This document shows, piece after piece, positions 26,496 through 32,446 of a stretch of DNA of 64,000 bases. The notes under the pieces are model-generated. The model had not been told where the DNA came from, searched no databases, and saw only the letters and a list, made by a program, of their open reading frames with translations. Origin of the DNA: Demetria terragena DSM 11295 (lineage in GTDB: Bacteria; Actinomycetota; Actinomycetes; Actinomycetales; Dermatophilaceae); contig NZ_AQXW01000004.1 in assembly GCF_000376825.1 (NCBI RefSeq), forward strand, positions 2,604,001 to 2,668,000, written 5' to 3'. A program made the position numbers and the translations under genes. Positions within the stretch are counted from its first letter, which is position 1; each line of letters opens with the position of its first letter.

Positions 26496-27176
26496 GTGAA
26501 TGAAGTCATCCGCAGCGAGTACGACGGCCATGGGTTGGACGAGGGTGCGATGCCGAGCGCCCCATGGCCGGCCATCCAGGACTGGGTCAACCACGCCAGA
26601 GCGGCCCATGATGAGCGGCCGGACGTGCCAGAACCTGATGCCTTGTCGGTGGCGACGGCTGATGCGAGCGGCAGGCCACACGTACGCACCGTCCTGTTGC
26701 GCTATCTCGCTGCCGACGGCGTCGGGTTCTATACCAACCTCGAGTCTCGCAAGGGCCGGGATCTCGCCGAGAACGCTGCGGTGGCAGCGTCGCTCACGTG
26801 GCCGACGCTCTACCGCGCGATCAGATTCGCTGGGCGCATTGAGCGACTCCCGCACGAGACGACGATGGCGTACTTCCAGAGCCGTCCATGGGGCTCGCGC
26901 ATCGGGGCGTGGGCCTCGCGTCAGTCGCAACCGGTCGCGTCACGGGCCGAGCTTGAGGCGGCCTACGCGACGGTCGCCGAGCGCTGGCCAGACTGTGGCC
27001 ACGCCGACGATGTTCCGCTGCCCGACTTCTGGGGTGGCTACCGCATCGTCTGCGACGAAGTGGAGTTCTGGGGTGGGCGGCGGAGTCGGCTGCATGACCG
27101 TTTGCTCTACGAGCGAGTAGGCGAGGGCGACCTGGACCGTGCTGGTGCCTGGACCTGTCAGCGGCTCCAACCCTGA
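26496..27176 (+). CDS. pdxH: Pyridoxamine 5'-phosphate oxidase
   Basis: 226 residues. FMN-binding split-barrel enzyme: ATADASGRPHVRTVLLRYL, GFYTNLESRKGRDLAENA, SRPWGSRIGAWASRQSQ and the C-terminal WGGRRSRLHDRLLYER and GAWTCQRLQP all match PdxH. It oxidises pyridoxamine or pyridoxine 5'-phosphate to PLP, the cofactor of the nearby SerC. The start is GTG 26496 after a GGCTAGGG ribosome site. It is divergent from the RHH-VOC pair. Confidence 0.95.
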   Translation: MNEVIRSEYDGHGLDEGAMPSAPWPAIQDWVNHARAAHDERPDVPEPDALSVATADASGRPHVRTVLLRYLAADGVGFYTNLESRKGRDLAENAAVAASLTWPTLYRAIRFAGRIERLPHETTMAYFQSRPWGSRIGAWASRQSQPVASRAELEAAYATVAERWPDCGHADDVPLPDFWGGYRIVCDEVEFWGGRRSRLHDRLLYERVGEGDLDRAGAWTCQRLQP

Positions 27177-27272: not shown

Positions 27273-27354
27273 GGGTTCCGAACAGGAATCCTGGACGTCG
27301 TTGAGACGTCGACCGGTTGGCGCGATTCCCCCCTGTCCGCGCCAACCGGTCTTT
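27273..27354 (+). ncRNA. Candidate structured RNA with C6-loop terminator hairpin
   Basis: Three hairpins in a row. GGGTTCC-GAACA-GGAATCC (27273-27291); GACGTC-GTTGA-GACGTC (about 27293-27310); and a perfect 14-bp stem GACCGGTTGGCGCG with its complement (27311-27351), followed by TTT. The loop of the last holds exactly six C residues (ATTCCCCCCTGTC). The actinobacterial 6C RNA has cytosine-rich hairpin loops; here only one loop has the C6 run, so the match is partial. It may equally be just the pdxH terminator. Confidence 0.4.
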
Positions 27355-27420
27355 CCATGCCTACGCCCGAAATTCTCTTGATCTGAACTGGCCTTAAGAC
27401 CTACCGTTCAAGGACACGAG

Positions 27421-27477
27421 AGAGGAGGTGGTCCAGGAGTGAATTCTTCAAGGACGCGTGAGGTGGTCGCGCGCTAG
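27421..27477 (+). CDS. 12-residue leader frame after an unusually long Shine-Dalgarno
   Basis: AGAGGAGGTGGTCC (27421-27434) is complementary over about 14 bases to the 3' end of 16S rRNA, with a wobble. GTG 27439 follows at ribosome spacing and opens MNSSRTREVVAR, then TAG (27475-27477). The next frame (27458-27595) overlaps it. Whether the peptide matters or merely feeds ribosomes into the second frame is unknown. Confidence 0.4.
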   Translation, partial: RGGGPGVNSSRTREVVAR

Positions 27478-27595
27478 CGCGGCTCAAGTCGTCGACCGCC
27501 TCCGGGTGATCGACTGGGCGGAAGCGCTGGCAATTTCGGCCGGCCACCGCAGCCCGTGGGAGCACGAATCGTCCATCGTGCGTCCGCCTGACTAG
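27458..27595 (+). CDS. 45-residue frame overlapping a leader frame, in structured DNA
   Basis: From GTG 27458 the frame reads MRWSRASAAQVVDRLRVIDW, then AEALAISAGHRSPWEHESS, ending in RPPD and TAG. The sequence looks like a real protein (charge pattern, Trp/His-rich centre), but I do not recognise it. It overlaps the 12-residue leader by 20 bases, in the +1 frame; a +1 shift at CGC-TAG (27472-27477) would fuse them into a 52-residue product. Its 3' third forms a three-way RNA junction (27551-27611). So it may be a peptide gene, an RNA, or both. Confidence 0.4.
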   Translation: MRWSRASAAQVVDRLRVIDWAEALAISAGHRSPWEHESSIVRPPD

Positions 27596-27611
27596 GCGGA
27601 GCCCACGGGCT
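27551..27611. other. Perfect three-way-junction RNA structure
   Basis: Outer stem AGCCCGTGGG/CCCACGGGCT (27551-27560 with 27602-27611, 10 bp). Inside it, GCACGA-(8)-TCGTGC (27562-27581) and TCCGCCT-GACT-AGGCGGA (27583-27600). All three helices are perfect. It could end transcripts from both sides, as it lies ten bases beyond the DUF305 stop. Confidence 0.65.
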
Positions 27612-27621
27612 GTTTCATGCG

Positions 27622-28335
27622 CTAAGGCGCGGGTGGGACGGCGTCCCGCTTGCGCAGCATCGAGATCATCAGGTTGATCTCGGATTTCTGTCCGGCAACC
27701 ATCTTCTTCGCCAAGTCCACGACATTGGGCTCAGTGCAGGAGCTCACGCAGGCGCTGGCCATATCGACGCCAGCGCGGTGGTGGGGAATCATCAGTTGCA
27801 GATAGATGACTTCCGCGTCCTTGCCCCGCGCAGACCGCAGTTGGTCCAGTTGACCGGCCGATGCCATCCCTTGCATCCGGCCGTCAGGTTGAAGCATCGG
27901 TTTGCCGCCCGAGTGCTGGTGACCCGACCGCTTCATCCACTCCATGGGGTCTTCGGCCCGAGCCTGGGACAATCCCCAGGTCTCTAACCAGCCGCGCATC
28001 TCGCCCCGCTGGTTTTCCTGGGTGGTAGCGATGTCGTACGCCAACGTCTGAACGTCATTCGCCGTCCCAGCGCTGCGCACGATGAGCGACATGTCCACGG
28101 CCTGGCCGTGGTGCAACTGCATGTCGCGAGCAAAACCTGCGTCAGTACTGAGATCGCCTGGCCACGTCGGGCGACCGATGAACCACCCGGCGAAGAAGAC
28201 CGCGACCGCGGCGAGTAGCGCGCCGACCCACATCAGGACCTTGCGAGTGGCAAGCGGCGACGCGGTCTCCCGGAGGTACTCGTCGCTCACGCCCGCCGAC
28301 TGGCCGGAGCCCTCGGGCGCCTCTTGCTGGCTCAC
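27622..28335 (-). CDS. DUF305-family membrane-anchored protein
   Basis: 237 residues: a cytoplasmic tail, one membrane helix (about 31-53), and a four-helix DUF305 domain with His/Met-rich motifs DMQLHHGQAVDMS and LMIPHHRAGVDMAS. The DUF305 fold is ferritin-like, and the paired HH motifs suggest metal (possibly copper) binding outside the cell. It is translationally coupled (ATGA) to the DUF3105 gene before it. The exact function is unknown. Confidence 0.85.
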   Translation of the reverse strand: MSQQEAPEGSGQSAGVSDEYLRETASPLATRKVLMWVGALLAAVAVFFAGWFIGRPTWPGDLSTDAGFARDMQLHHGQAVDMSLIVRSAGTANDVQTLAYDIATTQENQRGEMRGWLETWGLSQARAEDPMEWMKRSGHQHSGGKPMLQPDGRMQGMASAGQLDQLRSARGKDAEVIYLQLMIPHHRAGVDMASACVSSCTEPNVVDLAKKMVAGQKSEINLMISMLRKRDAVPPAP

Positions 28336-31525: not shown

Positions 31526-32446
31526 TTAGGCCGTGCTGTGCGCTCCCGTCATCAGGCCGGCGAGGTCCTCGGGATGCAGGAACGACGGTGGTGGAGGTGG
31601 TCCCCAGTTGAACAGCCCGGCCGCTCCTTCGAGCACCTCCGGTTCCCAGATCTCATCTTCGGGGATGACGTCCATGTCGGAGAAGTACTCCGAGAAGTTG
31701 CCGGCTGGATCCTTCAGGTACCAAAAGAAGTTCGAGCCTGCGTGGTGGCGGCCGAGGCCCCAGACGTGGCGCTCGGGACTGCCCTCGAGCATCGCGAACG
31801 CGCCGCGACCCACGTCGTCGATGTCGTCGACCTGCCAACTGGTGTGGTGCAGGTAGTTCACCGGCGACTGCAACGCGAGAAAGTTGTGGTGGTCGGTAGA
31901 GCAGCGCATGAACGCGCCCTTGTCGCCGATGTAGTCCGAGACCTTGAAGCCGAGGCCTTCGGTGAAGAAGTGCATCGTGCGCTTAAGGTCAGTTGTCCCG
32001 GCGACCGCGTGGCCGAGTCGGCGCGGTCTGACCCGGTCAGTACGGACCACTCCAGGCGCACGCCCGCTGCGGTCGATCCGACCGGGGCCGTTGTACGGCG
32101 TCGCGACCGATGCGTCTTGAACGAGCCTGGGCAGGACCCGAATTCGCACGGTGAATCCCGAAACCGGCTCCTGTGCGAGGAGTGCCTCGCCATCGAGCTC
32201 CGCCCGCAGACCAAGGCGCTGCACGTTCGCGGCGATTCGGGCCAGGTCATCGGTGTCGTCGGCCGCGACACCGAGCTCGATGAGTTGGCGGCGGGGTGCC
32301 GAAACGATCTTGAGCTGCTCGCCACCGTCGCGAGTGCTGAGCTTGCCGTCCACTCCGGGCGCTAGGCCGAAGTCGGTGTAGTAGGCGTGCGTGGCCTCGA
32401 CGTCGGGGACACCCATCGTGACGTGACTGAGTCGGTGCAGGCTCAT
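31526..32446 (-). CDS. Extradiol ring-cleavage dioxygenase (VOC family)
   Basis: 306 residues with two VOC modules. The catalytic C-terminal module keeps the metal triad: His146 (RLGHAVAG), a His in YLHHTSWQV (about 200-201), and Glu253 (NFSEYFSDMD). These bind Fe2+ or Mn2+ in catechol 2,3-dioxygenase-like enzymes that open catechols beside the hydroxyls. The gene leads directly to a FAH-family gene and a hydroxylase on the same strand, so the cluster likely hydroxylates, cleaves and hydrolyses one aromatic compound. The compound is unknown. Confidence 0.9.
   Translation of the reverse strand: MSLHRLSHVTMGVPDVEATHAYYTDFGLAPGVDGKLSTRDGGEQLKIVSAPRRQLIELGVAADDTDDLARIAANVQRLGLRAELDGEALLAQEPVSGFTVRIRVLPRLVQDASVATPYNGPGRIDRSGRAPGVVRTDRVRPRRLGHAVAGTTDLKRTMHFFTEGLGFKVSDYIGDKGAFMRCSTDHHNFLALQSPVNYLHHTSWQVDDIDDVGRGAFAMLEGSPERHVWGLGRHHAGSNFFWYLKDPAGNFSEYFSDMDVIPEDEIWEPEVLEGAAGLFNWGPPPPPSFLHPEDLAGLMTGAHSTA

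Follow-up and report, generated by a model that had tools for sequence, protein, structure and literature searches.

Results

The window analysed here is a stretch of 64,000 nucleotides of the Demetria terragena DSM 11295 genome. It carries an element at 27421-27611, flanked by pdxH (end at 27176) and by a DUF305-like gene in convergent orientation (end at 27622); all parts of the element are on the + strand. An initial annotation had proposed an undescribed element here. The features on which that proposal was based (an extreme Shine-Dalgarno sequence, two short frames and an RNA junction) are all present where it had placed them, and its reading of the locus as an intergenic RNA gene is supported. 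The claim of novelty is contradicted, as the element is a member of a known actinobacterial sRNA family, Ms_IGR-5 (Rfam RF02471, labelled 'Actinobacteria sRNA'), which is transcribed in several genera. The covariance model was matched over its whole length (model positions 1-184) at 27414-27618 with 66.2 bits against a gathering cut-off of 45, and the D. terragena genome has one copy. The predicted fold of 27409-27625 has an energy of -111.7 kcal/mol compared with a mean of -89.5 for shuffled sequences (z -4.6), and none of 200 shuffles was equally stable.

RF02471 was found in 193 of the 297 sampled genomes of the class, and 36 of 60 genomes of the window's own family had a match at E 0.01. 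The core pattern of the element, including its start and stop codons, was present as a single copy in 44 of the 99 genomes from the order (reversed-pattern controls, 0) and was confined to the class in a sample of genomes of the phylum. One genome (G085, locus L045) has two RF02471 matches and the other listed genomes of the class have one each; L290 and L291 are weak second matches without the 5' part of the element. Overall, about 260 relatives were compared, in subsets of 131 loci, which were drawn from covariance-model matches, and of 113 distinct, 251, 256 and 259 sequences. The relatives were gathered with the covariance model and with patterns that favour consensus or seed-like sequences, and they share ancestry and are not independent observations. 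Earlier studies describe Ms_IGR-5 transcripts in S. lividans, S. avermitilis and M. smegmatis (there ncMSMEG15794c). PMC4974804 reports significant ribosomal reads on the M. abscessus and M. smegmatis homologues of MS_IGR-5, and cautions that footprints can also arise from structured non-coding RNAs. No mention of a conserved reading frame in Ms_IGR-5 was found in the available parts of the literature on the sRNA.

A -10 box, TACCGT, lies at 27402-27407. The corresponding TAnnnT is located 20-23 nt 5' of the Shine-Dalgarno sequence in each of the 131 relatives, against a background rate of 0.9%. Eighteen nt upstream of it is a possible -35 box, TTGATC (27378-27383), and TTG is present at roughly this distance in 109 of the 131. 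The 3' end is formed by the three-way junction that the initial annotation had recognised, and which the fold of the RNA confirmed. Its outer helix (27550-27560/27602-27612), a probable terminator, encloses hairpin 1 at 27562-27581, with CGTCC in the loop, and hairpin 2 at 27583-27600. In 251 relatives the neighbouring genes vary across groups and the downstream gene is often convergent; the neighbours presumably include pdxH, nitrobindin-like, citrate synthase, class IV aminotransferase, PaaI-like, FUR, RNase Z and other genes. Because the neighbours differ and the downstream gene is often convergent, Ms_IGR-5 at this locus is, on sequence grounds, a free-standing unit with its own promoter and 3' end hairpin and not a leader. 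The attenuating leader that had been suggested is thus unlikely, and a cis leader or transcription attenuator was rejected: the window has no co-oriented downstream gene, and what follows the element in most relatives is a gene on the opposite strand or one that differs between groups. A phage or plasmid origin was also discarded, as no match was found in the phage or plasmid collection. Downstream of pdxH, at 27311-27351, there are a perfect hairpin of 14 bp (GACCGGTTGGCGCG/CGCGCCAACCGGTC) and a short T run, which together are probably the pdxH terminator and would separate pdxH from the sRNA.

The Shine-Dalgarno sequence, SD1, occupies 27421-27435. Complementarity to the 16S tail over about 14 bases had been noted (AGAGGAGGTGGTCC at 27421-27434), and it is in fact longer. 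The 16S genes of this genome terminate in TGGATCACCTCCTTTCT, and 17 consecutive bases of the window, that is, SD1 with 2 upstream bases, pair with this end when G-U is allowed. Counted in the same way, the entire 17-base tail is paired in 118 of the 131 relatives and 16 bases are paired in 11 more. The spacing between SD1 and the start codon varies by one to three bases. The short core GGAGGTGRTCC is not enriched genome-wide, with 14 sites, two of which are 16S genes read backwards, versus 8 for the control. A second GGAGGTGGTCC lies in the window at 31593-31603.

SD1 precedes a frame of 12 codons at 27439-27477 (GTG to TAG, MNSSRTREVVAR), whose start, length and stop are conserved. ATG (57), TTG (52) or GTG (19) occupies the start position in 128 of the 131 loci, and TAG (122), TAA (4) or TGA (4) the stop position in 130. 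L015 alone has ATT at the start position, possibly a rare start codon. All of 113 distinct sequences lack stops in frame 0, compared with a mean of 10.4 sequences with stops, and never fewer than 3, after column shuffling; frames 1 and 2 are broken by stops in 83 and 105 of the 113. On a tree of 256 sequences, each of the 30 start-codon changes affected base 1; of 18 changes in the stop codon, 14 led from one stop to another. Rare length variants stay in frame (13 codons in L115 and L123). Within the frame, an SD-like motif, GAGGTG (SD2; 27460-27465), lies in every one of the 131 relatives 9 nt upstream of the stop codon and five codons away from it, an invariance that is partly conditional on the detection of relatives by the model and patterns. 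Its distance from the start codon varies in steps of three only.

The encoded amino acids behave differently from the frame. Synonymous changes, tallied by parsimony on the tree, amounted to 130 versus 139 expected over codons 2, 3, 4, 7, 10, 11 and 12, and since this count matches expectation, the amino acids are not conserved; no selection on them was detectable by this count outside the RNA motifs. Codon 3 showed a mild synonymous excess (49 versus 36). The TREV core of the peptide is widespread in relatives, and the seemingly conserved residues T6, E8 and V9 coincide with bases that RNA motifs hold constant. An ordinary peptide gene, one of the readings that had been considered, is therefore unlikely.

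Comparison of relatives ties the structured 3' junction to the 12-codon frame through two pairings, each with compensatory base changes. P2 is a helix between the segment that runs from the last base of codon 8 through codon 11 and a strand that ends in CACC directly 5' of the junction. In the window its 5' strand, in codons 8-11, lies at 27462-27469 and its 3' strand, ending in CCACC, at 27541-27548. Over 10 bp, 94% of cells are paired, versus 23-38% when the strands are slid, and double changes occur at five positions. The 3' strand of P2 drifts through wobble pairs (TACC, CATC, TGCC) while the 5' GGTG is unchanging; therefore GAGGTG is under a further constraint, which is likely anti-SD pairing at the stop codon. 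The second pairing is a pseudoknot between GGAC in codons 5-6 and GUCC in the loop of hairpin 1, which is paired in every one of the 259 sequences; 7 of these have the double change GGAT/AUCC. Its fifth pair, which involves base 3 of codon 6, is possible in 187 of 259, compared with a mean of 112 and a maximum of 136 in shuffled data, and with 114.5 +/- 27.7 (maximum 179 in 300) under a tree-aware null in which the sites evolve independently. The positions flanking the pseudoknot gave no covariation signal. The window carries the complete 5-bp form, GGACG at 27452-27456 with CGTCC at 27570-27574. P2 (10 bp) and the pseudoknot (4-5 bp) are thus predicted, from covariation and comparison, to fold the second half of the frame against the 3' domain. 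A third helix, P3, joins GCTAGC (27473-27478), which contains the stop codon, to GCTGGC (27526-27531).

P2 and the pseudoknot are absent from Rfam's model and are new from the comparison of relatives. Rfam's nested consensus instead pairs the Shine-Dalgarno sequence with codons 10-11; 92% of its cells pair, and the Shine-Dalgarno side varies at one position only, with no clear covariation. Another nested helix, P1, between the tail of SD1 and GGAC, was rejected as unconvincing, as the extra pair at codon 5 fits 78 of 131 versus 69.5 by chance.

Discussion

By comparison of sequences, we regard the promoter, SD1, the frame, its stop codon, P2, the pseudoknot and the non-conservation of the peptide as established; the switch proposed here, its direction and any target are what we infer from them. 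Since the frame and its stop are conserved, the peptide is not, and the frame forms half of the RNA fold, it is plausible that selection acts on the passage of the ribosome. That Ms_IGR-5 is an RNA switch under selection for its translation rather than for its peptide, with a fold that follows the position of the ribosome, has in our judgement about an even chance of being correct. The RNA would be transcribed from its own promoter and terminated at its own 3' hairpin. A ribosome would load through a Shine-Dalgarno sequence paired with the entire 16S tail and read exactly 12 codons, and the SD-like internal GAGGUG could hold the terminating ribosome at the stop codon. In the ribosome-free state, codons 5-6 would lie in the pseudoknot, codons 8-11 in P2 and the stop region in P3. 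An initiating ribosome is predicted to mask codons 5-6 and leave P2 and P3 free, and a terminating ribosome to mask P2 and P3 and release codons 5-6; these predictions rest on typical ribosome footprint sizes. The change of fold would then report or respond to the state of the ribosome, with the 3' strand of P2 (..CACC) exposed or hidden. The ribosome footprints on the mycobacterial homologues, as described in PMC4974804, agree with this switch reading. More tentatively, the element may be a free-standing, trans-acting switch gated by the ribosome and widespread in Actinomycetes, whose only conserved coding property is passage over 12 codons with a hold at the stop by the internal Shine-Dalgarno, and whose frame is one half of a pseudoknot and of a long-range helix.

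Other readings explain part of these data. A dual-function sRNA, which base-pairs with distant mRNAs and also yields the 12-residue peptide as a functional product, would account for the conserved translated frame, the TREV core common to many relatives, the mild excess at codon 3 and the listing of the RNA among the sRNAs of M. smegmatis and Streptomyces. The shared T, E and V, however, sit on bases that RNA motifs fix, no excess of synonymous changes is seen at the other codons, and the core peptide strings are printed nowhere in the literature that was searched by string, so we consider this reading rather unlikely. It is quite unlikely that the RNA is a purely non-coding base-pairing sRNA, in which the SD-like stretches serve for pairing or for docking ribosomes and the frame merely happens to be open. 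Rfam's classification and the extensive RNA structure agree with such an RNA, but start codons are replaced only by other start codons and stop codons only by other stop codons, no sequence breaks frame 0, and the few changes of length stay in frame.

A sink for ribosomes or 30S subunits, or a binder of the 16S tail, in which the 17-nt anti-SD match and SD2 occupy ribosomes and translation merely parks them, is suggested by the complementarity of SD1 to the whole tail in most relatives and by SD2 at the stop; it leaves the covariation of the pseudoknot and P2 unexplained and is very unlikely. The 45-residue frame in the +1 register, for which the initial annotation had considered, as one possibility, a peptide gene expressed through coupling or a +1 frameshift at CGC-TAG, does exist in the window at 27458-27595. 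Comparison of relatives contradicts both the gene and a programmed frameshift: the frame is 2-75 codons long among the 131 relatives, ending after 2 codons in 29 of them, its GTG is missing in 16, and the +1 frame beyond the 12-codon stop ranges from 2 to 69 codons. The chance of such an overlapping gene is close to negligible. What stands of the initial annotation is the RNA gene with its extreme Shine-Dalgarno, 12-codon frame and junction; the novelty, the 45-residue gene and the frameshift do not.

The ribosome-position switch resembles several known systems in part. The RF02471 model describes the same actinobacterial RNA from its own intergenic gene, matched at full length, but it is nested, has neither pseudoknot nor P2, and the family is filed as non-coding. 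SgrS/SgrT, a dual-function sRNA, is likewise a small RNA carrying a short translated frame, whereas in Ms_IGR-5 the peptide is not conserved and the frame is folded into its own 3' domain. Leader-peptide attenuators and uORFs share a short frame, a fold set by the position of the ribosome and then a terminator hairpin; the present element differs from them in being free-standing, with changing neighbours and no co-oriented downstream gene in the window. In type I toxin mRNAs controlled by a pseudoknot, for example those of PMC11228461, a pseudoknot in a small mRNA also governs translation, but Ms_IGR-5 has no toxin-like conserved peptide.

A family that is filed as non-coding and occurs in about two thirds of the class genomes sampled, mycobacteria and streptomycetes among them, thus appears to be translated, and the act of translation rather than the peptide appears to be selected. 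The pseudoknot, P2, the two Shine-Dalgarno sequences and the 12 codons make a concrete, testable structure. If the switch reading is true, it would represent a new way by which the state of the ribosome controls a trans-acting RNA.

A short form of the element also exists. Six weak matches in the window's family (L284-L289), below Rfam's cut-off, are without the pseudoknot and the junction, and judging from these sequences the pseudoknot is not needed in every member of the family. They retain the promoter, SD1, the 12-codon frame (e.g. MISSGTCEVATR), GAGGTG, a local GGTGG/CCACC hairpin and the terminator. Because the short forms keep these parts, the core of the element consists of SD1, the 12 codons, GAGGTG together with the strand it pairs with, and the terminator.
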